Shown here: piece by piece, positions 10,845-41,483 of the stretch | How the letters are laid out: every line of letters begins with the position of its first letter | Numbering within the stretch: position 1 is the stretch's first letter | DNA from: Mycobacteriales bacterium | Lineage (GTDB): Bacteria; Actinomycetota; Actinomycetes; JAFAQI01 | Assembly (NCBI GenBank): GCA_035550055.1 | Contig: DASZRO010000005.1 | Span: forward strand, 124,001-188,000 | DNA: 64,000 nt | Direction: 5' to 3' | The notes under the pieces: model-generated | Seen by the model: the letters and a program-made list of their open reading frames with translations, nothing else | Told to the model about the DNA's origin: nothing | The model's database searches: none | Made by a program: the position numbers and the translations under genes

Positions 10845-10853
10845 CCGTTGCCT

Positions 10854-10872: not shown

Positions 10873-10921
10873 GAAGGGACGGCGGTCGAGCAGACGGCCG
10901 CCGCCCCGCACACCCGTCCGG

Positions 10922-12954: not shown

Positions 12955-14111
12955 TCGACCACCACGACCGCGACGTCGTCGACGAGCGGGGCGCCGTTGA
13001 GTCGCTGGGCACTGGCGATCATGTGGTCGACCAGCAGGGGCGTGCTGTCGAAGTCGTGACACTCCTCGGCGACGGTGAGCAGGCGTTCGACGCCGAGCCG
13101 GTCGCTGCCCTCACCGGTCCGGCCTTCGACCAGCCCGTCGGTGAACAGCATCAGCCGCCAGTTCTCGGGCAGCTCGAACGTGCGCCGCTCCCATCGCGAG
13201 TCCGGGATCAGCCCCAGGGGCGCGCCGACGCGGTCCGCGGGTAGCTGCGAGACGGGCGAACCGAGCATCAACGGCGCCGGATGACCGGCGAGGTGGAACG
13301 AACCGTGGCGGCGGTCCGGTTCGATCACCGCCGTGCACAAGGTCGCGAACGTCTCGTCATTGCGGCGTTCACTCGCCACCACCGCGTCGAGGATCGGCAG
13401 GACGTCGGCGTCGCTCGTCGCAGCCAGCACGAGTGTGCGCCAGGCGATGCGCAACGCGACCCCGAGGGCGGCCTCGTCGATGTCGTGACCCGAGACATCG
13501 CCGACCATGATGTGCAGCCGGCCGTCCTCGGTCTCGACCACGTCGAAGAAGTCACCGCCGAGCACCCCTTCATGGCCGGGCTGGTAGCGCGTCACGACCA
13601 TGAGTCGCTTGTCGTCGACGATCGGCAGCGGCAGCAACCCCCACTGCAGCCGCTCGTTCTCGGCGGCGCGCAGCTCCGAGGCGTGCAGCCGGCGCAGCTG
13701 CTGCTCGGCGCGCTTGCGCTCGACGGAGTACTGGATCGACCGCCGCAGCAGCTGACCGTCGACCTGCCCTTTGATCAGGTAGTCCTGCGCACCGATCGAC
13801 ACCGCGGCCAGCCCGCTGTCTTCCTGGGCCAGCCCGGTCAGCACGATCACCGGCAGGTCCGGCGCGGCGTCGAGCACGGCACGCAAGGCACCCAGCCCGG
13901 TCGCGTCGGGCAGCCCGAGGTCGAACAGCACACAGTCGAAGTCGCCGGGCAGCGCCGCCAAGGCCGCTTCGAGCTTGGCGACGCTCTCGATGTGGATGGC
14001 CGGGTCGGTGTCGGAGAGCAGCTCCTTCACCAGCACCGCGTCGCCGAGGTCGTCCTCGACGAGGAGCACGGCCCGGCCCGCCACGGGCGGCAGCCCTGCT
14101 GCGTTGCTCAC
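12942..14111 (-). CDS. Response-regulator/SpoIIE-type PP2C phosphatase
   Basis: A 389-residue fusion: an N-terminal receiver domain (about 12-130, phospho-acceptor D64 in VLFDLGLPD) followed by a short coiled coil and a SpoIIE/RsbU-type serine phosphatase domain (about 160-385). Metal-binding acids are visible at D187 (GGDFFD) and D205 (VGDVSGHD), with LFTDGLVE and VDDVAVVVVE near the end. Such proteins dephosphorylate anti-anti-sigma factors in partner-switching stress pathways. GTG 14111 has GGCGGAG 6 nt upstream. First gene of the three-gene signalling operon. Confidence 0.93.
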   Translation of the reverse strand: MSNAAGLPPVAGRAVLLVEDDLGDAVLVKELLSDTDPAIHIESVAKLEAALAALPGDFDCVLFDLGLPDATGLGALRAVLDAAPDLPVIVLTGLAQEDSGLAAVSIGAQDYLIKGQVDGQLLRRSIQYSVERKRAEQQLRRLHASELRAAENERLQWGLLPLPIVDDKRLMVVTRYQPGHEGVLGGDFFDVVETEDGRLHIMVGDVSGHDIDEAALGVALRIAWRTLVLAATSDADVLPILDAVVASERRNDETFATLCTAVIEPDRRHGSFHLAGHPAPLMLGSPVSQLPADRVGAPLGLIPDSRWERRTFELPENWRLMLFTDGLVEGRTGEGSDRLGVERLLTVAEECHDFDSTPLLVDHMIASAQRLNGAPLVDDVAVVVVECRA

Positions 14112-24513: not shown

Positions 24514-26775
24514 CTACTGGCGCGACATCGCCTCCGCGGCGGCGACCTCGGCGTCGAACCTGCTGAGCTTGCCGGTCTCGATCTCGATCCGGTGGATGGT
24601 TCCTGCGAACGCGTTCGGACTGGCGTAGCGCGGGCTCACCGGCGAGCCGTGGTCGAAGCCGATGCTGTGACCGATGCTCGACATGATCCGCATCGCCATC
24701 GGCACGTGGCAGCTTCCCGCCACGATGTCGCCGATCAGCAGCTCGAAGTCTCCCGCCCCGCCGTCACGGGTGAAGCGCAGCCCGACCTGGCAGTCACCCA
24801 CCGGCAGCTGCGTGTCGGAGACGCAGACCGTGTGGTCGCCGAAACCGTTGTAGTCGAGGACGAGTCGATCGTCTTCGACGAACCACGACAGCCCGGCGTT
24901 CGCGGTCCCCGTCGCAAGGAGCACCCCGTCGTCCCCGGCGGCTCGGGTGATCGTCGCCGTCATCGCGAACCGGTTGCCGGCCAGCGTCGCGCCGGCCTGG
25001 GCCGGCAGCGGGGACATCGGCGGCCGGTAGACGTAGCGCCGCGACGTCGGGTGCGGAGAGTTGTCGTCGTACCTGGTCATGAACAGCTCGATCGTGCGGT
25101 CGTCGAGGGGCAGCACGCCGTGCTCGCGTGCCTGGTCCCACCACAGCGACACCATCTCGGCGAGCTTGTCCGGCTCGGTACCCGCGAGATCGTGGCACTC
25201 GGAGAAGTCGTCGCACACCTTGTAGAGCTCCCACGGGTCCTCGTCGTAGGGCACGTTCTGGGTGTGGCGGGTGACCGCCTTCCACTCGCCCTGCCAGATG
25301 CCGCGATGACCGTTCATCTCGAAGTACTGCGCGGTCCGCGGCGTGGGCGCGTCCGCCGCGTCGAAGGAGTAGCGCATCGAGCTGCCCGCGATCGGGAGCT
25401 GGTCGTAGCCGCGGTACGTCGAAGGCGGTGTGATCCCGATCGCGTCGTACACCGTCGGCGCGACGTCCACCGCGTGATGGAACTGCTGCCGGATGCCGCC
25501 CGGGTCGGCGATGTGGCCGGGCCAGCTCACGATGAACGGAACGTGCACGCCGCCTTCGTGGGTGTTCTGCTTGTACCACTTGAACGGCGTGTTGCCGGCC
25601 TGCGCCCAGCCCCACGGATAGTTGGCGTGGGAGTTCGGGCCACCGATGTCGTCGATGCGACCGATCGCCTCTTCCGGCGTCTCGAGCATGAAGTTGAAGA
25701 ACTTCATCTCGTGCATCACGCCGTACGGTCCGCCCTCCTGGGATGCGCCGTTGTCGGACACCAGCATGATCAGCGTGTCGTCGGTCAGCCCGAGCGCGTC
25801 GAGGTCGGCGAGCAGCCGCCCGATCTGTACGTCGGTGTGGTCGAGGAACGCGGCGAACGCCTCCTGCATTCGCGCCGCGAGCCGCCGCTGGACCTCCGGC
25901 AAGGAGTCCCACGGCTCGACGCCCGGATTGCGGGGGGCGAGGTCGGTGCCAGCCGGCACCAGGCCCATCTCCAGCTGCCGGGCGAACCATTGGTCGCGGG
26001 CCACGTCCCAGCCGGCGTCGAACTTGCCGCGGTACTTCGCGAGGTACTCCGGCGGCGCCTGGTGCGGCGCGTGCGTCGCCCCGAACGCCAGGTAGAGGAA
26101 GAACGGCCGGTCCGGACGCACCGACACGGAGTCGTGGATGAATCCCGACGCCCGATCGACCAGGTCCTCCGACAGGTGGTAGCCCTCGTCGGGCGTCGCC
26201 GGGGGGCTGACCCGATGGTTGTCGTAGAACAGGTCCGGGTTGAACTGGTCGGTCTCGCCCTCGAGGAAGCCGTAGAACCGGTCGAAGCCCCGCTGGCACG
26301 GCCATGCGTCCATCGGTCCCGCGGCGGAGCAGTCCAGCGCCGGGCACAGGTGCCACTTGCCGACCGCGAACGTGGCGTAGCCCTCGTCGCGCAACACCTC
26401 GGCGATCGTCGCCGCCCGAGGCGAGATCTTGCCCGTCATCTGCGGGAACCCGGTGTTGAAGTTCGCCACCGACCGCATGCCGACGGTGTGGTGGTTGCGG
26501 CCGGTGAGCAGGGCGGCGCGGGTCGGCGAGCACAACGGGGTGACGTGGAAGTTCGAGTAGCGCAGGCCGCCTGCCGCCAAGCGGTCGATGTTGGGGGTGT
26601 CGATGGAGGAGCCGTAGCAACCGAGCTGTGCGAAGCCGGTGTCGTCGAGCACGATCATGACCACGTTCGGCGCCCCGACGGGGGCCGACCGCTTCGGGTA
26701 CGACGGGGTCGAGTCCACGTGGGTGTCGGCGAGCACCCCGTCGAAATCCTCGTGAACCGGCACGTGGTCCTCCAT
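24514..26775 (-). CDS. Arylsulfatase (FGly-dependent)
   Basis: A 753-residue sulfatase that hydrolyses sulfate esters. The sequence CSPTR with C82 is the formylglycine site (CxPxR), preceded by metal-binding D44-D45 (IVLDDTGFAQLG); LVSDNGASQEG supplies the later metal ligands. After about residue 520 there is the extra C-terminal beta-rich domain seen in PAS-like actinobacterial and proteobacterial arylsulfatases. No signal peptide is visible, so it is probably cytoplasmic, acting on imported substrate. ATG 26775 follows AAGGG at 5 nt. It is divergent from the importer operon across a shared operator. Confidence 0.94.
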   Translation of the reverse strand: MEDHVPVHEDFDGVLADTHVDSTPSYPKRSAPVGAPNVVMIVLDDTGFAQLGCYGSSIDTPNIDRLAAGGLRYSNFHVTPLCSPTRAALLTGRNHHTVGMRSVANFNTGFPQMTGKISPRAATIAEVLRDEGYATFAVGKWHLCPALDCSAAGPMDAWPCQRGFDRFYGFLEGETDQFNPDLFYDNHRVSPPATPDEGYHLSEDLVDRASGFIHDSVSVRPDRPFFLYLAFGATHAPHQAPPEYLAKYRGKFDAGWDVARDQWFARQLEMGLVPAGTDLAPRNPGVEPWDSLPEVQRRLAARMQEAFAAFLDHTDVQIGRLLADLDALGLTDDTLIMLVSDNGASQEGGPYGVMHEMKFFNFMLETPEEAIGRIDDIGGPNSHANYPWGWAQAGNTPFKWYKQNTHEGGVHVPFIVSWPGHIADPGGIRQQFHHAVDVAPTVYDAIGITPPSTYRGYDQLPIAGSSMRYSFDAADAPTPRTAQYFEMNGHRGIWQGEWKAVTRHTQNVPYDEDPWELYKVCDDFSECHDLAGTEPDKLAEMVSLWWDQAREHGVLPLDDRTIELFMTRYDDNSPHPTSRRYVYRPPMSPLPAQAGATLAGNRFAMTATITRAAGDDGVLLATGTANAGLSWFVEDDRLVLDYNGFGDHTVCVSDTQLPVGDCQVGLRFTRDGGAGDFELLIGDIVAGSCHVPMAMRIMSSIGHSIGFDHGSPVSPRYASPNAFAGTIHRIEIETGKLSRFDAEVAAAEAMSRQ

Positions 26776-26798
26776 GGCCCTTGACACCTGCGCCGATA

Positions 26799-26818
26799 TA
26801 TTGACACTAAGAACGACA
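26799..26818. promoter_or_regulatory. Operator O1, shared with 39551-39570
   Basis: TATTGACACTAAGAACGACA matches the sequence at 39551-39570 at 17 of 20 positions with identical spacing. It lies between the divergent starts of the arylsulfatase (26775) and the importer operon (26881). It includes a TTGACA hexamer, a plausible -35 for the plus-strand operon. A second TTGACAC lies 20 bp upstream at 26781. Confidence 0.6.
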
Positions 26819-26880
26819 AAAGTTCAAGGGCGCCCGACCCGACGAGCACGAAGCGAGGCCAGCGTGGATCGAGGCACGGC

Positions 26881-28569
26881 GTGAATCGAGCAACAGTGCC
26901 CATCCGCAGGTACGCACCGGCACTGATCGTCGCCGCGGCGCTGCTGCTGCTCATCATCGTCGCGCCGTCGAAGAGCCCGTCCAGCTCGACCGTCTCCTAC
27001 AACGGCGCCGCTCCCGGCACGGTGAGCACCGATGTGCCGGTCCCGCCCGCCGGCGTCGTACCGACCTCGTCGGCAAGCGCCCCCTCGGCGCCCAACGGCA
27101 ACCACGGCAAGGGCAGCGCTGCCGGTCCGGGCACGACTGCCACTCCGAGCCCGGGACAGACCGCGAGCGGTACGACGCCGGCGGGCAGCACCGCCCACTG
27201 CGTCGACGGCCGGCAGTTCGCGGTCGCGGGCTTCGCCTCCGCCCCGCCCTGCCAGCCGACCTTCAGCGGCAACAACGGCGGCGCAACCGCCCCTGGAGTC
27301 ACCGCCACCACGATCGAGATCGTCTACTACCAGCCCAAGCAGAGCCTGGCGCTCAACGCCATCCTCGGCCCCGCGGGCTTGGCGCCCAGCGTCGCTCAGG
27401 TCAACGACTACATCGCGCGCGCGACGCAGTTCATCAACTCCAAGTACGAGCTGTGGGGCCGCAGGATCCACGTCGACGACTACGTCAGCCAGTCCTGCCA
27501 GGCCTCACCGCCGAGCGACTCGTGCTTCCGCCAGGACGCCCAGACGATCGTCGCCCGGTACCACCCGTTCGCTGTGATCTTCCCGCGCAACATCACTGCT
27601 CCCGGCTTCCAGTCCGAGCTGAGCCAGCTCCACGTCACCAACCTCGGCGGCATGAACATGCCGCAGAGCTTCAGCACCAGCCAGGCGCCCTACCACTTCG
27701 ACTACGACATGGACGGCGACACCCAGGCCGAGCTCACCGGGGAGTGGTACTGCAAGGAGCTGGCCAACCGCGACGCGGTGTACGCCGGCGAGGCGAGCCT
27801 GCGGGACAAGCCACGCTCCGCCGAGATCCTCACCGAGGACACCCCCGAGCACCTGCAAGTGGCCGAGCACCTGGCGGCGATCATCAACTCCTGCGACCAC
27901 GGCGGCGGCGCCACGGTGAAGAGCTACTCGCCCGACACCGGGGAGGCGGTCGTGCAGAGCACGACGCTCGCCTCACAGGCGAAGCAGAACGGCATCACCA
28001 CGCTGCTGTACTTCACCGATCCGGTGTTCCCGGTCTACCTGACGCCGCAGCTCACCGATCAGGGCTACTTCCCCGAGAACGTCGTCGTCGGTTCGGCCTA
28101 CCTCGACTTCGACTCGCTCGCCCAGCTCTACAACGCGCAGCAGTGGAAGAACGCGTTCGGCCTCGGCGACCTGCCGAACATGGCGGCCATCTCCAGCTAC
28201 GACTCAGGCGCGGTCTACCGCAGCACGCACGGCTCGGACGCGCCGTTCATCAGCGCCGCCAACATCCAGGGCTTCTTCAGCGTGCTCGCCGCGGGGCTTC
28301 AGCAAGCCGGTCCGCACCTGACCGCGGTCAACTTCGAAAGCGGCGTGCTCAGCCTGCCACCGCTCGGTGGTTCGCCCAACCACGCGCTGATCAAGTTCGG
28401 TCCGGACGACTTCACCGGAGTCTCGGATGCCCGCATCATCTACTGGGATCCCGCCCGGCACTCCCCCGTGAACGGCAAGGCGGGCACTTACGTGTCGCTC
28501 AACGGCGGCAAGCGATACGCGCTCGGGCAGCTGCCGACCGGCACGTTCAAGATCCCCGGTCGCTCTTGA
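26881..28569 (+). CDS. Membrane-tethered type I solute-binding protein
   Basis: A 562-residue binding protein. One N-terminal membrane segment (YAPALIVAAALLLLIIVAPS) is followed by an 80-residue Ser/Pro/Gly/Thr linker without a lipobox Cys, so it is tethered by the helix rather than a lipid. From about residue 100 there is a periplasmic-binding type I (LivJ-like) module, opening with a Cys pair (AHCVDG, PPCQPTF) and TIEIVYYQPKQS. It should deliver a hydrophobic or amino-acid-like ligand to the fused importer encoded next. GTG 26881 has GAGG 6 nt upstream. The stop overlaps the next start in TTGA. Confidence 0.85.
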   Translation: MNRATVPIRRYAPALIVAAALLLLIIVAPSKSPSSSTVSYNGAAPGTVSTDVPVPPAGVVPTSSASAPSAPNGNHGKGSAAGPGTTATPSPGQTASGTTPAGSTAHCVDGRQFAVAGFASAPPCQPTFSGNNGGATAPGVTATTIEIVYYQPKQSLALNAILGPAGLAPSVAQVNDYIARATQFINSKYELWGRRIHVDDYVSQSCQASPPSDSCFRQDAQTIVARYHPFAVIFPRNITAPGFQSELSQLHVTNLGGMNMPQSFSTSQAPYHFDYDMDGDTQAELTGEWYCKELANRDAVYAGEASLRDKPRSAEILTEDTPEHLQVAEHLAAIINSCDHGGGATVKSYSPDTGEAVVQSTTLASQAKQNGITTLLYFTDPVFPVYLTPQLTDQGYFPENVVVGSAYLDFDSLAQLYNAQQWKNAFGLGDLPNMAAISSYDSGAVYRSTHGSDAPFISAANIQGFFSVLAAGLQQAGPHLTAVNFESGVLSLPPLGGSPNHALIKFGPDDFTGVSDARIIYWDPARHSPVNGKAGTYVSLNGGKRYALGQLPTGTFKIPGRS

Positions 28570-31500
28570 GCTCGCCGGCCCACTCGCGCAGCCAGACCGC
28601 ACAGGTCTGGCTGGTCCGGGTGCTCGCCGTCCCGGTCATCGCGCTCGCCGCCGAGCTCGTCTTCGGCTGGGGCCACCGGCGTACCGAGCTCGGCTTCCTG
28701 CCCGCCCCGCATGGCGTGCCGTTCGGCAACCTCGTCGAAGGCGCGATCTTCGGATTGCTGTTCGCCCTCCCGGCGTTCGGACTGATCCTCGTCTACCGGG
28801 CGCAGCGCATCATCAACTTCGCCGCGTCCTCGCTCGGCGGCAGCGCCGCGGTGCTCGGGCTGCTCGTCATCCAGCAGGCCCACCTGCCCTACCTCGTCGG
28901 GGTGGTGGCCGCGCTCGGCGCCGGCGGGCTGCTCGGAATGATCGCGCAGCGCACCCTGCTGCGGCGGTTCAACAACAAGTCCCGCCTGGTGCTCACCGTC
29001 GCGACGATCGGGGTGGGCCAGATCCTCGCGATCGGCGAGGTCGTCCTGCCGTCGCTGTTCGGCAGCACGGTGCTGGGTGCCACGCAGCTGACGACGCCGT
29101 TCAGCCATTGGCACTTCTCGGTCGGGCAGGTCGTCCTGTCCGGGGACTACATCGCGATCATCGTCGTCGCGCTGGCGGTGACGGTCGGCCTGGGTTTGTT
29201 CTTCCGGCTCACCCGGACCGGACTGGGAGTGCGGGCCAGCGCCGACAACGCCGACCGCGCCTCGCTGCTCGGGATCCCGGTACGGCGAATGGCGGTGCTC
29301 GTCTGGGTGATCGCGGGTCTGCTGTCCGCCGCGTCGGCGTTTTTGAAGATCGCCGTCGTGGGGCAGTCGCTCGGCGCCGACATCGACCCGGAACTGTTGC
29401 TGTTCCCGCTCGCCGCCGCCGTCATCGCGAACTTCGACGACATCCCGACCGCGCTGATCGCCGGCATCGGCCTCGGCATCCTCGACCGGGCCGCGTTCTA
29501 CTCGACGAACAACGCCTACCTGCCCGCCGTGCTCGTCCTGCCCATCGTGCTCGTCGCGCTGCTCGGCCGCCGGCAGGCGTCGCGGGCCTTCGACAGCGGC
29601 ATCTCGAGCTTCCAGACCTTCGCGGAGTCCCGCCCCGTCCCGCTCCAGCTGCGACGGGTGCCCGAGGTCATGTGGAGTGGCCGCGGGCTCAAGGTCGCCG
29701 CCGCCGTACTGGCCGTCCTCGGGCCGGAGATCGTCGGATCGTCGCGGCTGGGCGACCTCGAACAGGTCGTGATCTACGCAATCGTCGCGCTGTCACTCAC
29801 GCCGCTGACCGGCTGGGCCGGGCAGCTCTCGTTGGGGCAGTTCGGGATCGCCGGGGTCGGCGCGGCCGTCGCTGGCGGTCTTGCCACGCACGCCCACGCG
29901 GACTTCTTCGTCACGCTGTTCGTCGCCGCCGCCGTCGGAGCGATCATCGCCACGCTGATCGGTATCCCGGCGCTGCGGCTGCCCGGGCTCTTCCTGGCGG
30001 TTGTCACCCTCGCGTTCGCCGCCGGCGTGCAGTACCTCGTGCTCGACTCCCGGTACTTCGGCTGGCTGCTGCCCGGCGACACCCAAAGCATCGACCGCCC
30101 GGTCCTGTTCGGCCGGTGGGACACCAGCGCCACGTCGTTTGCGACCGACCGCGTCTTCTACTACCTGTGCCTGGGCATCCTGCTGTTGTTCATCGCCGCC
30201 ATGGTCCGGCTGCGGTCCACCCGCTCCGGGCGGGTGTTCATCGCGCAGCGCGACAACATCCGCGAGGCGCAGGCACTCGGGGTCAACGCCGCCCGGACCA
30301 AGATCGCCGCGTTCGCCATCGCCGGTGCGATGGCCGCGGTCGGCGGGGCGCTGCTCGCCTATCAGGTGTCGGCGATCGACTCGACCACGTTCCCGATGCA
30401 GCTGTCGATCGACGTGTTCGTGTTCGCGACGGTCGGTGGCATCGCGAGCCCCTACGGCGCGGTGCTCGGCGCCCTCGCCTACGAGTCGCTCAACTTCTTC
30501 GGTGGGTCGCTGTTCGGGTGGCTCGACCACATCCGGCTCGGCTCGCTGGTGAGCTACATGGACGAGCTCGGGCTGTCCAGCGGCGTACTGCTGGTGCTGT
30601 CGTTCTTCCCCGGCGGCATCGCCTCGACCGGTACGGCGTTGCGCGATCGCTACCTGCGCTGGGTGGCGGGCCGCCGGGCCATCGAGCTGCCGAGCCTGCA
30701 GGCCGACCGCGCGGCGGCCGAGCACTCCGCCGAGGCGCACCGGTTCCACGTGGACGAGCCGACCGAGGACGCACTGCTGGTCTGCCGCGACCTCGACGTC
30801 GGCTACGACGGCGTCCAGGTCCTCTTCGGCGTCGACATGCACATCAGGCGCGGCGAGATTCTCGCGCTGCTGGGGACCAACGGCGCCGGCAAGTCGACGC
30901 TGTTGCGTGCCATCAGCGGGCTGACCATGCCCTCGCAAGGCACCATCACCTTCGACGGTCGCGACATCACCACCCTCAGTCCGGTCACCCGAGCGCGAAG
31001 CGGCATCTCGCAGGTCCCGGGCGGCAAGGGCATCTTCCCGACCGTCACGGTCGCCGACCACTTCCGGGCCGCCCGCTGGATCCGCAGCAAGGAGCACCTG
31101 GCGGCCGGCGACCAGGCGCAGGCGAAGGTGCTCGAATGGTTCCCCAACCTGCGCAACCGCTGGGACACCCTCGCCGGGAACCTTTCCGGCGGTGAGGCGC
31201 AGCAGCTGGCAGTCGGGATGGCGTTCATCACGCGGCCGAGCCTGCTGATCATCGACGAGCTGTCGCTCGGGCTCGCGCCCACCATCGTCGAACGGTTGCT
31301 CGACGTGGTCCGCGAGGTCAACGAAGGCGGCACCACGGTGGTCCTGGTCGAGCAGTCGGTCAACGTGGCCCTCACCATTGCCGAACGCGCCTACTTCATG
31401 GAGAAGGGCGAGGTGCGCTTCTGCGGACCGACTGCCGAGCTCGTCGAGCGTGACGACATCGTGCGATCGGTCTTCCTGGCAGCGGCCAACGACGGGCCGG

Positions 31501-32375
31501 CGACCGCCAAGCCGAGGCCGTCGACCACGCCGCCGATCAAGGTCCGCGCCGAGGCCAAGGCGGACGTGTTGCGCGTCACCGACCTGTCGGTGTCCTTCGG
31601 CGGCGTACGCGCCGTCGACTCGGTCTCGTTCAGCCTCGCCGAGGGCGAGATCCTCGGCCTGATCGGGCCGAACGGCGCGGGCAAGACCACCTGCTTCGAC
31701 CTTGTCAGCGGTTTCCTTCGCCCGACGAGCGGCCGGGTCTGGTTCGCCGGCCAAGACGTGACCGCCACCGGCCCGGACGCGCGCGGCCGGCTCGGGCTCG
31801 GCCGGTCGTTCCAGGACGCGCGGATCTTCCCGAGCCTTTCGGTCGCCGAGAACATCGCCGCGTCGCTCGAGCGGCATCTGGAGATCCACGACCACCTCGC
31901 CGCCGCGCTCGGCATGCCCGACGTCGCCGACCTGGAACGCCACATCGCCTGGACGGTCAGCGATCTGGTCGAGCTGCTCTCTCTCGGCGCCTACCGCGAC
32001 AAGCTGGTGCGCGAGCTCTCGACAGGAACTCGCCGGATGGTCGACATCGCCATGGCACTGGCCTACGACCCGGTCGTCCTGTTGCTCGACGAGCCGAGCA
32101 GTGGCATCGCCCAGCGAGAGACCGAGGCGCTCGGCCCGATGCTGCTGCGGATCCGCGACGAGGCGGACTGCTCGCTGCTCGTCATCGAGCACGACATGCC
32201 GTTGATCTGCGCCGTCAGCGACCGCCTGCTCGCCCTCGAGCAGGGGCGGGTGATCGCCGGCGGCCGCCCGGAGGACGTGCTGCGCGATCCGCAGGTCGTC
32301 GCGAGCTATCTCGGCAGCAACGACGCCACACGCAACCGGTCCGGATCCGTACCCGCCGCGGCGGCCGCGACATGA
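28566..32375 (+). CDS. Single-chain Liv-type ABC importer (LivH-LivM-LivF-LivG fusion)
   Basis: One 1269-codon frame holds a complete branched-chain/urea-type importer core. A LivH-like permease (to about 345) is followed by a LivM-like permease (about 375-700; RLPGLFLAVVTLAFAAGVQY region). Next is a LivF-like ATPase (about 733-965; Walker A from G770 in GTNGAGKST, signature LSGGEAQQ near 873, DELSLGLAP), and then a LivG-like ATPase (about 997-1255; GPNGAGKTT near 1034, signature LSTGTRR at 1151, DEPSSGIA). No stop or restart separates them. The TTG at 28566 overlaps the binding-protein stop (TTGA); a GTG at 28620 is an alternative. The frame running up to 27453 is read-through inside the binding-protein gene. 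Confidence 0.9.
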   Translation: MSSPAHSRSQTAQVWLVRVLAVPVIALAAELVFGWGHRRTELGFLPAPHGVPFGNLVEGAIFGLLFALPAFGLILVYRAQRIINFAASSLGGSAAVLGLLVIQQAHLPYLVGVVAALGAGGLLGMIAQRTLLRRFNNKSRLVLTVATIGVGQILAIGEVVLPSLFGSTVLGATQLTTPFSHWHFSVGQVVLSGDYIAIIVVALAVTVGLGLFFRLTRTGLGVRASADNADRASLLGIPVRRMAVLVWVIAGLLSAASAFLKIAVVGQSLGADIDPELLLFPLAAAVIANFDDIPTALIAGIGLGILDRAAFYSTNNAYLPAVLVLPIVLVALLGRRQASRAFDSGISSFQTFAESRPVPLQLRRVPEVMWSGRGLKVAAAVLAVLGPEIVGSSRLGDLEQVVIYAIVALSLTPLTGWAGQLSLGQFGIAGVGAAVAGGLATHAHADFFVTLFVAAAVGAIIATLIGIPALRLPGLFLAVVTLAFAAGVQYLVLDSRYFGWLLPGDTQSIDRPVLFGRWDTSATSFATDRVFYYLCLGILLLFIAAMVRLRSTRSGRVFIAQRDNIREAQALGVNAARTKIAAFAIAGAMAAVGGALLAYQVSAIDSTTFPMQLSIDVFVFATVGGIASPYGAVLGALAYESLNFFGGSLFGWLDHIRLGSLVSYMDELGLSSGVLLVLSFFPGGIASTGTALRDRYLRWVAGRRAIELPSLQADRAAAEHSAEAHRFHVDEPTEDALLVCRDLDVGYDGVQVLFGVDMHIRRGEILALLGTNGAGKSTLLRAISGLTMPSQGTITFDGRDITTLSPVTRARSGISQVPGGKGIFPTVTVADHFRAARWIRSKEHLAAGDQAQAKVLEWFPNLRNRWDTLAGNLSGGEAQQLAVGMAFITRPSLLIIDELSLGLAPTIVERLLDVVREVNEGGTTVVLVEQSVNVALTIAERAYFMEKGEVRFCGPTAELVERDDIVRSVFLAAANDGPATAKPRPSTTPPIKVRAEAKADVLRVTDLSVSFGGVRAVDSVSFSLAEGEILGLIGPNGAGKTTCFDLVSGFLRPTSGRVWFAGQDVTATGPDARGRLGLGRSFQDARIFPSLSVAENIAASLERHLEIHDHLAAALGMPDVADLERHIAWTVSDLVELLSLGAYRDKLVRELSTGTRRMVDIAMALAYDPVVLLLDEPSSGIAQRETEALGPMLLRIRDEADCSLLVIEHDMPLICAVSDRLLALEQGRVIAGGRPEDVLRDPQVVASYLGSNDATRNRSGSVPAAAAAT

Positions 32376-33379
32376 GGCGCCTCGTGCTCGCCGCGGTCGC
32401 GGTCGGGGTCTCGTTGCTCGGTGTGGTCTCGGCCGGCGCACTGTCCGCCGGCTCGGTCACGAGGCCGCAGGGTCCGCTCCCGATCTCGATCGCCCCGGAC
32501 AAGGCGGCGTGGTACGACGCCACGAGACCGAGCTCACTCACCCCCGGCGCGCCGATGCCCGGCGTCAGCAAGTCCGACCTGGTCGTCGAGGGCCTGACGA
32601 TCAACACTGCGCTCCTGCCGATCTCACTGCCGATCCCAACCCTCCGTGAGGTGACGGCGTACACCGCGTTGCAGTTCCGCCTTCCCGCCGGTGCGACGCC
32701 CGGCAGCCTGACCCTGCATCTGACCGGGTTCTCGACCGCGGCGATCGACTCGCATCTGCCGAGCGGGGTGACCCCCATTGCCTGCCCCGCGGCGTCGTTC
32801 AAGCCTGGCGGCCAGCAGCCGGCCAGCGCCGCACCGAAGTACGACTGCGACCATCGATCGACAGTCGGTCAGATCGGTGACGGCGGCAAGGCGATCGTCT
32901 TCCCCGGGATCAGTCGGCTGCTGACGAACAGTCGGACGCTCTCAGTCGTCATCCTGCCCGGCAGCCTCGGGCTGGAGCGGCTGGTGTTCTCGGCGCCCGG
33001 CAAGGACACCCTCAGCCTGCTCGACTTCACTTTGCCGCAGTCGTCGACCTCGCCCGTTGCACCGGCGCCGACCCCGACCCTCACAACGGGGCCGTCACCG
33101 CCGCCGGCCGTGACCGCGCCGGCGGTCCCGCTGCCGTCGCAAGGTGCGATCACCCCGACCGCGCCGGCGCCGGTGATCGCCTCGTCGGCACCCGCTGTGG
33201 TGGTCGAGGCCGCGAGCCGGCCGGACGACGGACGAGAGCGAGCCCGCGCGATTGGCCTGCTCGTCGCGCTCGTCGTCGCGACCGCCTGGTTCTCGTTCAC
33301 CGACCGCCGCCGCGAGGTGACGGAGATGGGCGTGGGCCGGTTCCGGTCAGTACGCAGCGGGCCACCGCCCGCCGTCTAG
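32372..33379 (+). CDS. Secreted, C-terminally anchored protein of the importer operon
   Basis: A 335-residue protein with a signal peptide (RLVLAAVAVGVSLLGVVSAG), an ectodomain of about 190 residues containing two Cys (IACPAAS, YDCDHR) and a beta-rich look, a Pro/Ala/Thr linker (about 220-275), and one C-terminal membrane helix (AIGLLVALVVATAWFSF). I recognise no family. Its position, overlapping the importer gene by ATGA, suggests a surface accessory that binds or presents the transported compound. Confidence 0.75.
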   Translation: MRRLVLAAVAVGVSLLGVVSAGALSAGSVTRPQGPLPISIAPDKAAWYDATRPSSLTPGAPMPGVSKSDLVVEGLTINTALLPISLPIPTLREVTAYTALQFRLPAGATPGSLTLHLTGFSTAAIDSHLPSGVTPIACPAASFKPGGQQPASAAPKYDCDHRSTVGQIGDGGKAIVFPGISRLLTNSRTLSVVILPGSLGLERLVFSAPGKDTLSLLDFTLPQSSTSPVAPAPTPTLTTGPSPPPAVTAPAVPLPSQGAITPTAPAPVIASSAPAVVVEAASRPDDGRERARAIGLLVALVVATAWFSFTDRRREVTEMGVGRFRSVRSGPPPAV

Positions 33380-33416
33380 TTCTCATCCACTCCGCTAGGG
33401 GGACGTCATCGAGGTT

Positions 33417-34229
33417 GTGCTTCTGGGGACCGGCAGCCCGCTGCCCGACCCCGAACGTGCCGGTCCGTCGACGCTGGTCGTCGCGGGAGACACCCGGCTC
33501 CTGGTCGACGCCGGCCGCGGCGTGCTGATGAGAGCCGCCGCGGTTGGCGTCTCAGCGGCGGTGATCGATGCCGTGCTGCTGACGCATTTGCACAGCGACC
33601 ACATCACCGACCTCAACGACGTGATCACCTCTCGGTGGGTGACCAGCTTCACGCCCTCGCCGCTCACCGTGATCGGACCTCCCGGCACCCGCGACGTCGT
33701 CGGCGGGATCCTCGCGATGCTCGGCCACGACATCGGCTACCGGCTCGCCCACCACGCCGACCTGACCTGGCAGCCGCCGGTGGACGTCCGCGAGACCACC
33801 GACGGCATCTGCTTCAGCACTGCCGAGGTCACGGTCAGCGCCGCGCCGACCGACCATCGTCCGGTCGAGCCGAGCATCGGCTTCCGGGTGGACCACGGGG
33901 GCCGTTCGGTGGTGCTCGCCGGCGACACCGTCCCGTGCGCCTCACTCGACGCGTTGTGCGCCGGCGCCGACGCCGTCGTCCACACCGCGGTGCGGTCCGA
34001 CGTGATCGAGACGGTTCCGTTGCAGCGACTCAAGGACGTGACCGACTATCACTCCTCCGTCGAGCAGGCGGCGCAGACGGCGGCGCGTGCTGGGGCGGCG
34101 ACCCTGGTGCTCACCCACTACGTCCCGGCGCTGACGCCGGCCGACGAGCCCGAGTGGAGGGGGCGCGCCGCCGCGCACTTCTCGGGCAGGATCGTGCTCG
34201 GCGACGACCTGCTCCGGGTGGAGGTGTAG
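33417..34229 (+). CDS. MBL-fold metallo-hydrolase (RNase Z/arylsulfatase-like)
   Basis: A metallo-beta-lactamase-fold hydrolase of about 270 residues. The di-zinc motif is [12 protein letters not shown]; further ligands are the His of [11 protein letters not shown], the Asp of LAGDTVPC and the His of LTHYVPAL. It resembles actinobacterial RNase-Z-like hydrolases, which include enzymes cleaving sulfate or phosphate esters and lactones. The start is doubtful: GTG 33417 is the first standard codon, but AGGGGGA sits 4-5 nt before an ATC at 33408, where homologues have Met (then [10 protein letters not shown]). Third enzyme-type gene of the operon. Confidence 0.88.
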
Positions 34230-34231
34230 AC

Positions 34232-34669
34232 ATGCCGAAGCGCTCACGGAAGATCGCGGCTCCGGCCGCTGAGGTGTGGGCGGTCCTCGCCGACTTCCCG
34301 GCGATCGCGTCGTGGGCGCCCAACGTCGACCACTCGGTAGCCACCACCGCGGCCCGGCAAGGGATCGGCGCGGTACGCCGCGTCCAGACCGGGCGGATCA
34401 CGCTGCTCGAGACGGTCGTGGACTGGCGCCCCGGCGAGCTGCTGTCCTACACCCTCGACGGGCTGCCCCCGATCGCGGGCAGCGTCGTGACGACGTGGCA
34501 GCTCGCCGAGTCCGGCGGGCAGACCAAGACGACGGTCTCCACCGTCATCACGTCACGGCCGAACCCGGTCAGCCGGATCGTCGGGCGCGCCCTGTCGCGC
34601 CAGCTGGCGCGCGCCGCGAAGCAGATGCTCGGCGGTCTCGCCGCACGGGTCGAGGAGGGGTCGAAGTGA
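34232..34669 (+). CDS. SRPBCC (START/polyketide-cyclase-like) family protein
   Basis: A 145-residue SRPBCC protein starting with the typical KIAAPAAEVWAVLADFPAIA and containing TVVDWRPGELLSYTL. The fold makes a deep hydrophobic cavity for lipids or polyketide-like ligands. ATG 34232 comes 2 nt after the MBL stop with GGAGGTG upstream, and its TGA overlaps the next start. In this operon it may carry or process the imported hydrophobic compound. Confidence 0.9.
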   Translation: MPKRSRKIAAPAAEVWAVLADFPAIASWAPNVDHSVATTAARQGIGAVRRVQTGRITLLETVVDWRPGELLSYTLDGLPPIAGSVVTTWQLAESGGQTKTTVSTVITSRPNPVSRIVGRALSRQLARAAKQMLGGLAARVEEGSK

Positions 34670-37257
34670 GCACGAAGCCCGACGTCATCATCCTGCTCAC
34701 CGACGAGGAGCGAGCGGTCCCGCCGTACGAGACCGACGAGCTGCTGGCCTGGCGCGACGCGCACCTGCCGAGCACGAAGTGGTTCCGCGAGAACGCGGTG
34801 AGCTTCGAACGGCACTACACCGGTTCGCTCGCCTGCGTCCCGAGCCGCCCCACGATGTTCACCGGCCACTATCCCGACCTGCACGGCGTCACGCAGACCG
34901 ACGGGCTCGGCAAGGCCGCCGACGACTCGCGGATGCGCTGGCTGCCCGCGGGCGAGGTGCCGACGCTCGGCAACTGGTTCCGTGCCGCGGGCTACGACAC
35001 CCACTACGACGGCAAGTGGCACATCAGCCACGCCGACATCCTCGAACGAGGCAAGCCGCTGGCCACCAACCGCGCCGACGGCCGGGTCATCCCCGAAGCG
35101 GTGCAGCGCTACCTCGACGAGGACCCGCTCGCGCCGTACGGGTTCTCCGGCTGGGTGGGGCCCGAACCGCACGGCGCCGGTCTCGCCGACTCGGGCGTGC
35201 GCCGCGACCCGCTGCTCGCCGACCGGGTCATCGCGTGGCTCACCGATCGGTACGACCGCCGCCGGTCCGGCGACGCGGCGGCGGCGCGCCCGTTTCTGCT
35301 CGTCGCGAGCTTCGTCAACCCGCACGACATCGTGCTGTACCCCGCGTGGCGCGGCCGCCGCAGCCCGCTGAAGGCCTCGCCGCTGGACCCGCCCGACGTG
35401 CCGGAGGCGCCCACTGCGCACGAGGACCTGGCCGGCAAACCGGCCGCGCAGGCCGGCTACCGTGCGGCGTACCCGTCCGGGTATGGGCCGCCCGCGGCCA
35501 TCGAGCGGATCTACACCAAGGGAGCCCAGGAGTACCGCAACCTCTACTACCGGCTGCACGCCGAGGTCGACAAACCGCTCGAGCGGGTACGCCGGGCGAT
35601 CGACGAGCAGCTGACCGGCGACACCGTCCTCGTCCGGACCGCCGACCACGGCGAGCTGCTCGGCGCCCACGGCGGGCTGCACCAGAAGTGGTTCAACCTC
35701 TACGACGAGGCGACGCGGATCCCGATGTTCATCGCGCGCGTCGGCGGCGAGAAGACGACCGTCGCGCGAAGTGTCACCGCGCCGAGCTCGCACGTCGATC
35801 TGGTGCCCACCCTGCTCGCGGCAGCCGGCATCGACGAAGCGGCGGTCGCCAAGAAGCTGCGCCGCGACTTCAGCGAGGTGCACGAGCTTCCCGGCACGAA
35901 CCTGATGCCCATCGTCGACGGCGCCCCGACCGGCGAGGCGGCGAAGCGCGCCGTCTACCTGTTGACCCGCGACAACATGCTCGAAGGCGACTCGGGGCTG
36001 TCCGGCCTGGCGCGGCGGCTTCGCCGCAAGGCGAACCCGCCCGTCCCGCTTCGCATCCAGGTCGCCGCCCACACCGGCTCGAACTTCGAAGGCGTCGTGG
36101 CAAGGGTCGACGCCAGCGACGCCCAGCGCGGCGGCGGTCATCTCTGGAAGCTGGTGCGGACCTTCGACGATCCGGCGACGTGGACCAGCCCCGGCATCGC
36201 CCACCTGGCCGCAAACGGGATCGGCGGCAACGCCTACCGCCGGGAGCCGCTACCCGACGAGTGGGAGCTCTACGACCTCGACGAGGATCCGACCGAGGCG
36301 CAGAACCGTGCCGGCGATGACAAGTGCCGGGCGATCTTCGAGCACCTGCAGACCCGGCTCAAGGAGGAGCGGGCGGCACGGGTACCGGAGCGCAACAACC
36401 CGTGGCCTTATGTCGCGCGCAACCCGTCCCCGGCTGCCAAGCGGCCACCACTGCCGGCCCGGGCGCTGCGCCGACTCGTCCGTCGTGTCGGGATGCACCC
36501 GGAGCTGCGCGCCACGGAGCACTTCCACCTGCCACGCCGTCGCGCGCTCGTCGTCGCCACCAACCACGGTGTCCTGGACGTCGGCAAGGCGACCGGGGTG
36601 TTCGCCTCCGAGCTCACCGTCCCCTACTACGCCTTTCTCGACGCCGGGATGGACGTCGACGTGGCAAGCCCGCGCGGCGGCACGATCCCGGTCGACCCGC
36701 TGTCGTTGAAACCGGTCATCCGGTGCGCGGCCGACGACCGGTTCCTCGCCGACGACGAGCTGCGGCGCAAGGTCGACGAGTCGCTGCCGGTCGGCGACGT
36801 ACCCATCGACGACTACGACCTGATCTACCTCGCCGGCGGGTGGGGCGCGGCGTTCGACTTCGCGACCTCGGAGGAGCTCGGCGACGCGGTGACGGCGGCC
36901 GCGGCCGCAGACCTCGTCATCGGCGGGATCTGCCACGGCCCACTCGGCCTGGTCAACGCGCTGGCGCCGAACGGTGCACCACTGGTGCAAGGGCGAAAGA
37001 TCAGCGCGGTCACCGACAAGCAGGTCCGTGAGCTCGGCATCTCCTCGACGCCGTTTCACCCCGAAACCGAACTACGCAAGCGGGGCGCCGAGTTCGAGTC
37101 CACTCATCGCTTCCGCGACCCGTTCGCCAACCACTGGGTGGTCGACGGCAACCTCGTGACCGGCCAGAACCAGAACGCCGGCCCGATGGTCGCCCAGGAG
37201 ATGCTGCGGCAAGTCGCCGCCAAGCTCGCCGGAACTGAGAAGAAGGAGTCCGTCTGA
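34666..37257 (+). CDS. Sulfatase fused to a DJ-1/PfpI (Hsp31-like) domain
   Basis: An 863-residue two-enzyme fusion. Residues 1 to about 590 are a sulfatase with FGly Cys57 in CVPSR (CxPxR), metal region IILLTDEER, YDGKWHIS, and VRTADHGELLGAHGGLHQKW (exactly the late metal-binding block). After a basic linker (about 590-625), residues 630-860 are a DJ-1/PfpI domain with E649 (ASELTVPYYAF), DVASPRGGTIPVDP and nucleophile Cys756 in GGICHGPLGL. DJ-1/Hsp31 relatives are glyoxalases, deglycases or isonitrile hydratases. GTG 34666 overlaps the preceding stop (GTGA); the longer frame is read-through. No signal peptide, so cytoplasmic. Confidence 0.92.
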   Translation: MSTKPDVIILLTDEERAVPPYETDELLAWRDAHLPSTKWFRENAVSFERHYTGSLACVPSRPTMFTGHYPDLHGVTQTDGLGKAADDSRMRWLPAGEVPTLGNWFRAAGYDTHYDGKWHISHADILERGKPLATNRADGRVIPEAVQRYLDEDPLAPYGFSGWVGPEPHGAGLADSGVRRDPLLADRVIAWLTDRYDRRRSGDAAAARPFLLVASFVNPHDIVLYPAWRGRRSPLKASPLDPPDVPEAPTAHEDLAGKPAAQAGYRAAYPSGYGPPAAIERIYTKGAQEYRNLYYRLHAEVDKPLERVRRAIDEQLTGDTVLVRTADHGELLGAHGGLHQKWFNLYDEATRIPMFIARVGGEKTTVARSVTAPSSHVDLVPTLLAAAGIDEAAVAKKLRRDFSEVHELPGTNLMPIVDGAPTGEAAKRAVYLLTRDNMLEGDSGLSGLARRLRRKANPPVPLRIQVAAHTGSNFEGVVARVDASDAQRGGGHLWKLVRTFDDPATWTSPGIAHLAANGIGGNAYRREPLPDEWELYDLDEDPTEAQNRAGDDKCRAIFEHLQTRLKEERAARVPERNNPWPYVARNPSPAAKRPPLPARALRRLVRRVGMHPELRATEHFHLPRRRALVVATNHGVLDVGKATGVFASELTVPYYAFLDAGMDVDVASPRGGTIPVDPLSLKPVIRCAADDRFLADDELRRKVDESLPVGDVPIDDYDLIYLAGGWGAAFDFATSEELGDAVTAAAAADLVIGGICHGPLGLVNALAPNGAPLVQGRKISAVTDKQVRELGISSTPFHPETELRKRGAEFESTHRFRDPFANHWVVDGNLVTGQNQNAGPMVAQEMLRQVAAKLAGTEKKESV

Positions 37258-38009
37258 TGGCCGAGGGCGCAGCCCCCAACGACGTCGTTCACGCGCCACA
37301 CGCGCGGTACGGCACGCTCAACCTGCCCTACATCGCGACGTGGGCCGACGCCCCGAAGGACGAGCCGATGTGGGCGCTCAACCTGATGAGCTACCGCGAG
37401 CGGGCGGAGTACGCCGACGGCCGGGAGACCACGCTGACCGGGTGGGAGGCGGACAACCTCTACAGCCCGCTCGGTCCGATCGCCGCGATCGGGGCCGAGC
37501 TCGTGATCGTGGCGATCGTCGTGGACCAGCCGGCCGGCACCGACCACAAGTGGGACCGGGTGGCGATCGTCCGTTACCCGTACCGCAACGCGCTGGTCGA
37601 GATGAACATGACGCCGGAGTTCCAGGAGGCCCACGTCCACAAGGACGCGGGCATGAAGTTCACGATCGTCTCGGCGACGTTCCCGCAGCCGGACACCGTC
37701 GACCGCTCACTCGTCGACACCGACACCACGCCCGAGTCGCAGATGCTCCTGCAGTTCGTCGCGGACGCCGACGCCCCCGAGGTCGAGATCCCGGGTGCCC
37801 GCCGGATCGCCACCTTCGACGTCGAAGGCGTAGCCATCGGCGACGACCGCACCTGGGCCGAAGCCCGGTGGGACCTGCTTCCGGCGGACGTGTCCGCCGA
37901 AGCGATCCGGGCCGCGACCGAGGCGGCGACAACCGACGCCGACCGCTACGTCGTCGTACTCAAGCCCCAGCTCGGCGACTTCCTACGCGCGGTCGCCAAC
38001 AGCCGGTAG
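37257..38009 (+). CDS. Dimeric alpha/beta barrel-like protein, function unknown
   Basis: A 250-residue soluble protein. Residues 35-150 (MWALNLMSYRERAEYADGRE, IVAIVVDQPAG, RYPYRNALVEMN) resemble the NLMKYR-type dimeric alpha/beta barrels of the DUF1330/EthD kind. The C-terminal 100 residues, rich in Asp/Glu, are unassigned. The ATG overlaps the sulfatase-DJ-1 stop codon in TGATG. It ends the seven-gene operon and meets the dehalogenase gene tail-to-tail with 2 nt between. The catalytic chemistry cannot be predicted. Confidence 0.75.
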   Translation: MAEGAAPNDVVHAPHARYGTLNLPYIATWADAPKDEPMWALNLMSYRERAEYADGRETTLTGWEADNLYSPLGPIAAIGAELVIVAIVVDQPAGTDHKWDRVAIVRYPYRNALVEMNMTPEFQEAHVHKDAGMKFTIVSATFPQPDTVDRSLVDTDTTPESQMLLQFVADADAPEVEIPGARRIATFDVEGVAIGDDRTWAEARWDLLPADVSAEAIRAATEAATTDADRYVVVLKPQLGDFLRAVANSR

Positions 38010-38011
38010 CT

Positions 38012-38926
38012 TCACGCCGGATTCGCGTCGATGAAGTCGGCGATCGCCGTGGCCAGCTCGGGGCCCTTGTCCTCCTGCAGGAAGTGGCCGGCCGCCTCGA
38101 TCGTGCGGTGCGGCTGGCCCGCCGTCCCGGGAACCTTCTCCAGGAACAGCCGGTCGCTGCCCTTCGTGATCGGGTCGCTGTCGCTGAACAGCATCACCAT
38201 CGGCTTGTCCCACTTCGCGAAGACCTCCCACGCGGCGCGGTTCGCGGCTGATGCAGGGTCGTCCGGCGTGATCGGCACGAGCGTCGGGAACACCCGGGCG
38301 CCGGCCTTGTAGGTGTCGTCGGGGAACGGCGCGTTGTACGCCGCGAGCACCTCCGGGGCCGGCGGGTTCACCGTCGCGGTGCTGATGATGAAGCCGACGT
38401 CGAAGTTCGGCGTCTCCTGCGAGAAGCGACGCCAGTTGAGGAACGCCTCGGTGATCTTGGCGTCACCCGTCGGCAGGCCGGTGTTGCCGATCGCGACTCG
38501 CGCGAAGCGATCCGGGTTCTCCGCGACGACGCGCAGGCCGATCAGGCCACCCCAGTCCTGGCCGAAGAACGTCGCGTTGCTGATGCCGATGTGGTCGAAC
38601 AGCAGGCTGCGGATCCACTCCACGTGCCGGGCGTAGGTGTAGTCGTCGCGCTCGGTCGGCTTGTCGGAACGCCCGAACCCGACCAGGTCCGGCGCGATGC
38701 AGCGGAAGCCGCGCTCGACCAGGACCGGGATCATCGTGCGGTAAAGGAAGCACCACGACGGCTCGCCGTGCATGAGGACGACGACCTGCCCGTCGGCCGG
38801 GCCCTCATCGAGGTAGTGCATCCGCAACGTGCCGCCGTCGCCGTCGGCCACCTCCGCGTAGTGCGGAGCGAACGAGTAGTCCGGCAGACCCTCGAACGCC
38901 TCGTCGGGCGTGCGTACAACCTTCAC
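38012..38926 (-). CDS. Haloalkane dehalogenase, subfamily I
   Basis: A 304-residue alpha/beta-hydrolase with an Asp nucleophile. GQDWGG has D124 with halide-binding W125, numbered exactly as in DhlA. HGEPSW is the oxyanion region, H281 (AAGHFLQED) the base, D251 (DSDPIT) the likely acid, and W165 in LNWRRFSQ a candidate second halide ligand. It would hydrolyse carbon-halogen bonds; DhmA-type homologues in mycobacteria often have unknown natural substrates. GTG 38926 has GGGGAG 6 nt upstream. It follows the TetR gene by 2 nt and is presumably controlled with it. Confidence 0.9.
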   Translation of the reverse strand: MKVVRTPDEAFEGLPDYSFAPHYAEVADGDGGTLRMHYLDEGPADGQVVVLMHGEPSWCFLYRTMIPVLVERGFRCIAPDLVGFGRSDKPTERDDYTYARHVEWIRSLLFDHIGISNATFFGQDWGGLIGLRVVAENPDRFARVAIGNTGLPTGDAKITEAFLNWRRFSQETPNFDVGFIISTATVNPPAPEVLAAYNAPFPDDTYKAGARVFPTLVPITPDDPASAANRAAWEVFAKWDKPMVMLFSDSDPITKGSDRLFLEKVPGTAGQPHRTIEAAGHFLQEDKGPELATAIADFIDANPA

Positions 38927-38928
38927 CG

Positions 38929-39534
38929 TTACTCCCCTTTCGGCAGCAGGCGGTCCAGCGAGGTGCGGACCACGGCGACGGCCTTGGCCGTCGACAGCTT
39001 CTGATCGACGCGCAACAGCTCCATCACCTCGAACGAGGCGATCCCGTCGGCGCCGGACACGACGAGCGCCTGCTCGTCGTCGGGCAACGTCGCGAGCTCG
39101 GGCGCGAACTGGCGCTGCAGCTGCTCGCGCAGCAGAGCGCGCCGCGCGACCAGCGCTTCGGAGATCACCGGCTGGAACGGCGCCCGGATCATGGCGGCGC
39201 GCACCACCGGCGCGACTCGCTCGTAGAGCGCCGACCGTTGCCCCACCAGCGCATCGATCCGCTCGGATCGCGAGCCCTTGCCGAGCTCGGGCAGGTCGAA
39301 CATGAAGCCCACGCTGTCCAGATGCCGCTGGATGGCGATGCGGCCCATCTCGTCGAGGTCGTCGAAGTAGCGGAACACCGAACGCAGCGAGATGCCCGAC
39401 CGCTCGGCGACGGTGGCGACCGAGGGGTTCAGGTCGCCCTCGCGGAACAGCTCGAGCAGGGCATCGACCACCGTCTCGCGGTTTCGACCGCGGCGCGCGC
39501 GCCGACCGTCGAGCTCCGCCGACGAGGTGGTCAC
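38929..39534 (-). CDS. TetR-family regulator of the sulfatase/importer block
   Basis: A 201-residue TetR protein. The N-terminal helix-turn-helix lies around residues 25-65 (VVDALLELFREGD, VATVAERSGISLRSVFRYFD). The C-terminal ligand domain is all-helical. GTG 39534 has GAGGAG directly upstream; GTG 39546 is possible. It is immediately next to the operator-like sequence at 39551-39570, so it is the natural candidate to bind there and at the matching site 26799-26818. Co-transcribed with the dehalogenase. Confidence 0.9.
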   Translation of the reverse strand: MTTSSAELDGRRARRGRNRETVVDALLELFREGDLNPSVATVAERSGISLRSVFRYFDDLDEMGRIAIQRHLDSVGFMFDLPELGKGSRSERIDALVGQRSALYERVAPVVRAAMIRAPFQPVISEALVARRALLREQLQRQFAPELATLPDDEQALVVSGADGIASFEVMELLRVDQKLSTAKAVAVVRTSLDRLLPKGE

Positions 39535-39550: not shown

Positions 39551-39581
39551 TATTGACAGTAAGTATGACAGTTTCTACGGT
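39551..39581 (+). promoter_or_regulatory. Operator O2 and promoter
   Basis: TATTGACAGTAAGTATGACA (39551-39570) is the second copy of the sequence at 26799-26818. It contains a direct repeat TGACAGT-AAGTA-TGACAGT with a 12-bp period. TTGACA (39553-39558), 17 bp and TACGGT (39576-39581) form a good promoter for the gene at 39606, so a bound regulator would sit in the -35/spacer region. Confidence 0.65.
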
Positions 39582-39605: not shown

Positions 39606-40079
39606 GTGGTTGCTGTCACGGACATCCCCAAGGCCTTTACCCCGCCCGGCGGCTGGCACGGCGAGATGCCGCCACCGATCCTCGCCGGCTGCGACGAGCC
39701 CATCGCGGCCGGGCTCCCCGACCTGCGCGGGCTCTGGCGGGTGGTGAGCGTCACGGACGACGCCGGTGTCGAGCTGACGACGAACCCGATCGAGGGGTAC
39801 GTCGAACGGATCGAGCAGGCCGGCAACCGGGTCGTCATCACCTCGGCCGGCATCATCCACGACATGTACACCGACGGCACGTACGACAACGGCGTGAACG
39901 ACGTGATGCAGGCCGACTTCACGACCCGGATCTCGGTAGCCGCCTCCTTCGAGGACAGCGTGCTCGTCCTGCGGCCGAAGGGCCTCGACGGCGTCGAGAT
40001 CCGGCGATGGCGCGACGGGGAACAGCTGCGCTGGCGCTACTTCACGTTCTTCACCGCCGCGCTGGAGCGCATCGACTGA
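39606..40079 (+). CDS. Conserved hypothetical protein under operator O2
   Basis: A 157-residue soluble protein. After a Pro/Gly-rich start it reads LPDLRGLWRVVSVTDDAG, VEGYVERIEQAGNRVVI-like text and WRDGEQLRWRYFTFF, which suggests a small beta-barrel, possibly lipocalin-like. I do not recognise the family. The start GTG 39606 has the strong SD AAGGAGGG about 8 nt upstream and a clear promoter before that. It shares a regulatory region with the TetR gene. Confidence 0.7.
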   Translation: MVAVTDIPKAFTPPGGWHGEMPPPILAGCDEPIAAGLPDLRGLWRVVSVTDDAGVELTTNPIEGYVERIEQAGNRVVITSAGIIHDMYTDGTYDNGVNDVMQADFTTRISVAASFEDSVLVLRPKGLDGVEIRRWRDGEQLRWRYFTFFTAALERID

Positions 40080-40875: not shown

Positions 40876-41483
40876 GCGAAGAACGCGGTGACGATGCCGG
40901 CCAGCATCGGGTGCAGAATGTCGTCCACCGCGTCCGGTTCGCGATCGCTTGCGAAGTAGCCCGCAAGCTCGAGCATCACGAAACCGTGGGTCGCGCTCCA
41001 GAGCTGCGCGGCGAACGCCTCGGCGTCACCGGCTCGGAAGATGCCCGCGTCGATCGCGCGCTGGGTCGCCGCGACGAGGACGTCGAAGGTGTAGTGGCCC
41101 TCATCGAGCTCGTCGTCGTGCAGCCGGTATCCGCCGAGTGACGCGCTACCGAACATGACCGCGTAGAGGTGCGGGTTGTCGAGCGCATTCGCGCGGTAGG
41201 CCTCGCCGAGTGCGGCGAGGTCGAGCAACGGGTCGTCGGTCTCGGGCACCGCGGCCATATGGTCTGCAAGGCGGGCGAAACCCTCCCGCACCACTGCGCG
41301 AACCAGCTCGGGCAGCCCGCCGAAGTGCGTGTAGACGGCCATTGTCGAGGTGCCAACCTCCGCCGCGAGCCGACGGGTCGACAGCGCGGCCGGCCCGCCG
41401 TCGGCGAGCAGCCGCGCAGCGGCCTCGATCAGGCGGGAGCGGGCGTCCGGCTCGGCGGCTGTGCTCGGCGTCACACTTGCCAT
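40872..41483 (-). CDS. TetR-family regulator
   Basis: A 203-residue TetR regulator. The helix-turn-helix covers residues 15-60 (LIEAAARLLADGGPAALSTR, EVGTSTMAVYTHFG). The C-terminal half resembles the TetR_C_33-like actinobacterial group (HLYAVMFG, QLWSATHGFVMLELAGYF). It is divergent from the carotenoid oxygenase gene, and two palindromes between them are the probable operators, so it likely represses both itself and the oxygenase. Confidence 0.92.
   Translation of the reverse strand: MASVTPSTAAEPDARSRLIEAAARLLADGGPAALSTRRLAAEVGTSTMAVYTHFGGLPELVRAVVREGFARLADHMAAVPETDDPLLDLAALGEAYRANALDNPHLYAVMFGSASLGGYRLHDDELDEGHYTFDVLVAATQRAIDAGIFRAGDAEAFAAQLWSATHGFVMLELAGYFASDREPDAVDDILHPMLAGIVTAFFA

Follow-up and report, generated by a model that had tools for sequence, protein, structure and literature searches.

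Two similar sites in divergent intergenic regions are very probably binding sites for one TetR-type repressor controlling clustered sulfatase, transporter and dehalogenase-like genes

The stretch of DNA analysed here (64,000 bp; referred to as the window) carries a gene cluster bracketed by two operator-like sequences on the plus strand, copy 1 (TATTGACACTAAGAACGACA, 26799-26818) and copy 2 (TATTGACAGTAAGTATGACA, 39551-39570), with 12.7 kb between them (Table 1). The two copies are identical at 17/20 positions in a gap-free comparison, and both are located between divergently transcribed genes, copy 1 being flanked by the sulfatase gene (minus strand) and the transporter genes (plus strand) and copy 2 by the TetR-like gene (minus strand) and a small conserved gene (plus strand). 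The match, the shared spacing and the divergent intergenic location, all pointed out in the sequence-only reading, were borne out by the coordinates and the gap-free comparison, as were the AT-poor surroundings, the GC content of the window being 70%.

Judging from comparison with a related genome (G001, see below), the true start of the sulfatase is probably the GTG at 26763, which follows GGAGG. The substrate-binding protein of the transporter set was assigned by position and synteny only. The gene for the dehalogenase-like protein follows the TetR-like gene after 2 bp and is presumed to be on the same transcript. Within the plus-strand run, a single open frame at 34276-37257 encodes a sulfatase domain joined to a C-terminal DJ-1/PfpI domain, with 52-68% conservation across the whole fusion. 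A second TetR gene, of the TetR_C_33 type, is located at 40872-41483 next to a gene for a Clp_N-domain protein, both of which are kept in G001 and G002.

Table 1. Coordinates, strand and basis of assignment of the genes, sites and predicted promoters within the window
Feature	Position	Strand	Remarks
Type I sulfatase, predicted copy 1 target	24514..26787	-	CSPTR motif; PF00884 E=3.9e-66
Possible sulfatase promoter	26798..26827	-	TTGAAC (26827-26822), 18-bp spacer, CAATAT (26803-26798); inferred
Operator copy 1	26799..26820	+	TATTGACACTAAGAACGACAAA; between sulfatase and transporter genes; kept in relatives
Transporter genes, predicted copy 1 target	26881..32375	+	Branched-chain-type ABC permeases and ATPases; substrate-binding protein putative
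Rest of plus-strand run	32372..38009	+	Unknown gene, RNase Z-like MBL hydrolase, sulfatase-DJ-1 fusion, DUF1330-like protein (weak match)
Haloalkane dehalogenase-like alpha/beta hydrolase	38012..38926	-	PRK00870 465 bits; PDB 6f9o E=2e-126
TetR-like regulator, presumed binder of both sites	38929..39534	-	Profile, relatives, AlphaFold model
Operator copy 2 footprint	39551..39576	+	TATTGACAGTAAGTATGACAGTTTCT; between TetR and small gene at 39606
Predicted promoter of 39606 gene	39553..39581	+	-35 TTGACA (39553-39558), 17-bp spacer, -10 TACGGT (39576-39581); inferred
Small conserved protein, function unassigned, divergent to TetR	39606..40079	+	62-73% identical, same position in G001-G003

In DNA of 70% GC, chance would hardly place an AT-rich 20-mer in two divergent promoter regions. 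At up to three mismatches, a pattern merged from both copies matched the window at these two sites only, and 100 dinucleotide shuffles gave no match. With a slightly looser pattern, again at up to three mismatches, only copies 1 and 2 were detected in the whole genome (3,535,489 bases), each without a mismatch; the pattern in reverse, used as a control, matched once. The genome-wide search for copies outside promoters, suggested at the outset, thus revealed none beyond the two sites in 3.5 Mb. A weight matrix was also derived solely from the sites at the orthologues in other genomes, leaving out the window sites. The window copies scored 33.9 and 31.7 bits, against 10.4 for the next-best site in the window and a maximum of 13.0 in ten Markov-shuffled windows, or about 19-21 bits over background. 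A chance match was rejected on the basis of the window, shuffle, whole-genome and weight-matrix scans.

For comparison, related uncultivated Frankiales-type genomes (G001, G002 and G003, and the more distant G006) were used. The orthologues of the TetR-like gene in G001, G002 and G003 are 69%, 67% and 60% identical, and the sites TATTGACAGTATACATGCCAGT, TATTGACACTATACATGACAGT and TATTGACAGTCTATATGTCAGT, respectively, are located just upstream of them. Relatives of the sulfatase are 81% (G001), 74% (G002) and 54% (G006) identical, and TATTGACACTAGGAACGACAAT/A was found immediately upstream of the orthologue in G001 and G002. The second site of the pair was therefore present in both genomes in which that region is assembled; the contig of G003, on which the TetR-side site is present, stops inside a transporter gene, short of the second-site position. 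In the whole genomes of G001 and G002 there are exactly two 0-mismatch sites each, one by the TetR orthologue and one by the sulfatase orthologue, as expected of a two-site regulon. Both sites of G002 are on one contig, 13.1 kb apart. The gene order of the cluster is kept in G002, and in G001 and G003 as far as the contigs extend, the transporter genes being syntenic in G001 and G002 and partly in G003. G006, with a TetR 44% identical, has one site only; this perfect inverted repeat, TATTGACACTACCTCTGTCAATA, is located between the sulfatase gene and a DUF1330-like gene, which is followed by TetR. Where a close orthologue was lacking, genomes of the same family and order contained no site with 0 or 1 mismatch, and their matches with 2 mismatches were about as frequent as those of the control pattern.

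In the alignment of intergenic regions from four genomes, copy 2 is represented by the block TATTGACAsTnnnnATGnCAGTTTCT, and all 20 invariant columns lie within 39551-39576. The conserved block of copy 1 reads ATATATTGACACTAgGAACGACAAwAGTTCAAG. Outside both blocks the intergenic DNA has diverged, with little conservation. Both sites are thus conserved, confined to the cluster and travel with the TetR gene. The proposal that they are operator-like, shared and linked to TetR is strongly supported, since both copies are kept at the same genes in the relatives and are absent elsewhere in the genome.

The gene next to copy 2 had been taken for TetR. Its product scored 19.1 bits with Pfam TetR_N, below the cut-off of 24; relatives with full-length alignments, from G006 and L036, exceed this value, at 26.9 and 25.2 bits, and the helix-turn-helix region is nearly invariant between the protein and its relatives, indicating an N-terminal helix-turn-helix of the TetR_N type. 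The AlphaFold model (201 aa, pLDDT 83) is all helical and matches TetR-family structures over its full length, in agreement with a fold that includes a ligand-binding C-terminal domain; the best PDB match was 2qib (E=1.5e-4, TM 0.62), and the PDB matches listed were TetR-family regulators. The start at 39534 agrees with the orthologues, and a palindromic operator-like site, perfect in G006, nearly so in G003 and decayed in the window genome, G001 and G002, is found near the regulator's own gene. The assignment as TetR-like is thus upheld by the full-length fold match despite the weak Pfam score. With the KstR equivalog model the protein scored 22.9 bits, against a cut-off of 280. Acidimicrobiales MAGs (L036-L040, around 10001-13595) encode a TetR about 43% identical to that of the window, and in the loci compared (L036 and L037) the next gene downstream of this TetR encodes a sulfatase-DJ-1 fusion resembling that at 34276-37257. 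As judged from gene order, this adjacency is an independent link between this type of TetR and sulfatases. A similar operator was sought at the homologues in L036-L040, and none was found.

Within copy 2, TGACAGT is indeed present twice at 12-bp spacing (39554-39560 and 39566-39572), as the sequence-only reading had claimed in proposing a direct repeat unusual for TetR. Copy 2 matches at 7/7 positions as a direct repeat and at 5/7 as an inverted repeat, and in the four closest genomes the site on the TetR side matches at 6-7 of 7 positions in the direct sense. On this reading, a TetR protein with an unusual binding mode would bind the sites as direct repeats. Copy 1 of the window, however, is no better direct than inverted (4/7 each; copy 1 of G001 is 5/7 symmetric), and the inverted match of the TetR-side sites is 5/7 in the window genome, G001 and G002 and 6/7 in G003, and that of the single site in G006 is 7/7. 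The site of G006, TATTGACA-N7-TGTCAATA, found at the cognate position, is a perfect 23-bp palindrome and only 5/7 direct. The right half reads TGACAGT, TGCCAGT, TGTCAGT or TGTCAAT across the orthologues, its middle base varying among A, C and T; since TGnCA reads almost the same on the opposite strand, a change at this single position is enough to give the appearance of a direct repeat. Upstream of the genes of distant TetR homologues (about 31-42% identical), TTG...CAA inverted repeats were also found. These are near-perfect in L008-L010, whereas several others have perfect palindromes that span 17-19 bp and are no more than about 75 bp away from the start, including ATTGCGA-N7-TCGCAAT (L090), TTGCAC-N5-GTGCAA (L086, L087) and AGTTGCA-N7-TGCAACT (L088, L089).

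As far as the sequences go, the closest sites alone do not settle between direct and inverted repeats, but the relatives do. The parsimonious reading is that the right half of the closest sites is a decayed inverted half-site, an ancestral palindrome having drifted in that half. Binding to direct repeats was rejected as the main reading after the orthologue comparison, and we consider it improbable. It is also unlikely, if less so, that this TetR tolerates or even prefers an asymmetric or direct-repeat site, the fixed half being held as a -35 box while the second half drifted from palindrome to pseudo-direct repeat and stayed functional.

The left half of copy 2, TTGACA, is followed after 17-18 bp by TACGGT, TAGGGT, TACAGT or TAGGAT in the four genomes. 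The TANNNT pattern is typical of actinobacterial -10 boxes, and the intact left half thus probably doubles as the -35 box of the divergent gene, which would explain why it never drifts. At copy 1, the CTTGAAC and ATATAT blocks are invariant in three genomes, and the conserved minus-strand CTTGAAC and CAATAT possibly represent the sulfatase promoter, with operator 1 in the spacer and overlapping the -10 box. Strict sigma-70 and consensus promoter scans of both site regions called nothing. Copy 1 is itself framed by a wider inverted repeat, GCCCTTGA...TCAAGGGC, at 26777-26831 (minus-strand arms 26831-26824 and 26784-26777). In G002 the two arms have changed in concert, to GAGGCTTGA...TCAAGCCTC, and in G001 the repeat reads CCCTTGA...TCAAGGG. 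This repeat could be a second pair of half-sites, a DNA or RNA structure, or chance; the upstream arm is probably outside the sulfatase transcript, which bears on the RNA-hairpin reading.

Since TTGACA is the consensus -35 sequence, and a TANNNT box follows it at copy 2 in four genomes, the sites might also be two strong promoters of one sigma factor sharing a -35 box, without any repressor. This is very unlikely. Conservation continues well beyond the hexamer and takes in spacer bases (GnCA, GTTTCT) that a sigma factor would not usually dictate; the 22-mer is found without mismatch solely at these loci in each genome, the G006 site is a perfect 23-bp palindrome, and no -10 box of the TANNNT kind follows TTGACA at copy 1. 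That a different regulator binds both sites, the neighbouring TetR being incidental, is equally hard to credit: the second TetR gene at 40872-41483 is likewise kept in G001 and G002, but it was not found in the site-flanking stretches from G003 and G006, where the site and the first TetR persist, and it is the first TetR that has the site close upstream in all four of the closest genomes.

We therefore favour, with a probability of about 0.88, the reading that the two sites are paired operators of the adjacent TetR-family repressor, which would act as a dimer on an inverted repeat and control the 12.7 kb cluster; they very probably serve one TetR-type repressor of the sulfatase, transporter and dehalogenase-like genes. 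The dimer would bind ATTGACA-N7-TGnCArT at the two divergent promoters bracketing the cluster. At copy 2 it would block its own promoter, including the dehalogenase-like gene behind it, and also that of the gene at 39606, with the left half-site serving as its -35 box. At copy 1 it would block the promoter of the sulfatase gene and, probably, the transporter operon. The ligand releasing TetR would be a small molecule that the cluster deals with, perhaps an organic sulfate or the product of one. As copy 1 of the window is only 4/7 symmetric, the action of one protein at both sites is deduced from their similarity and co-conservation. Against the model of paired operators, copy 2 taken alone fits a direct repeat better than an inverted one, the consensus -35 sequence could account for the left half, the Acidimicrobiales homologues are without a similar site, and the strict promoter scans are silent. 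The pairing of the sites is real and, as bacterial gene control, ordinary. It offers a concrete two-operator regulon, open to test, for an uncultivated actinobacterial lineage, and joins the sulfatase, the transporter and the haloalkane dehalogenase-like enzyme as one probable catabolic unit, helping to guess its substrate.

Among the papers listed by a search of the literature, none described a TetR protein regulating sulfatases or a TTGACA/TGTCAA operator. In Rhodococcus, the TetR-type regulator DhaR is encoded beside the haloalkane dehalogenase gene dhaA. The present locus resembles that pair in gene neighbourhood, with a TetR-type gene beside a haloalkane dehalogenase-type gene; in contrast to dhaA, the enzyme here is closest to PDB 6f9o and 4mj3, which outscore the DhaA entries by a wide margin, and its gene is located in a sulfatase/transporter cluster. 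According to a survey of the family (PMC4482099), the usual TetR operator is a palindrome, and the majority of the regulator genes are transcribed divergently from a neighbour. The actinobacterial local repressors KstR, KstR2 and BkaR (PMC4482099) share with the present case a TetR-type protein with a divergent neighbour within 200 bp and an inverted-repeat site in the shared promoter region, repeated at another target. The half-site ATTGACA and the 7-bp spacer may set our case apart; similarity to KstR is weak at the sequence level, and there are only two sites in the genome. EthR and Mce3R (PMC4482099) also bind TetR-family sites that are not clean palindromes, but their operators are described as larger, more complex and present in multiple copies, whereas here each promoter has a single site of 19-21 bp, which in one relative is fully palindromic. 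A local TetR repressor with two operators bracketing its targets, as proposed here, is an arrangement typical of the family (PMC4482099).
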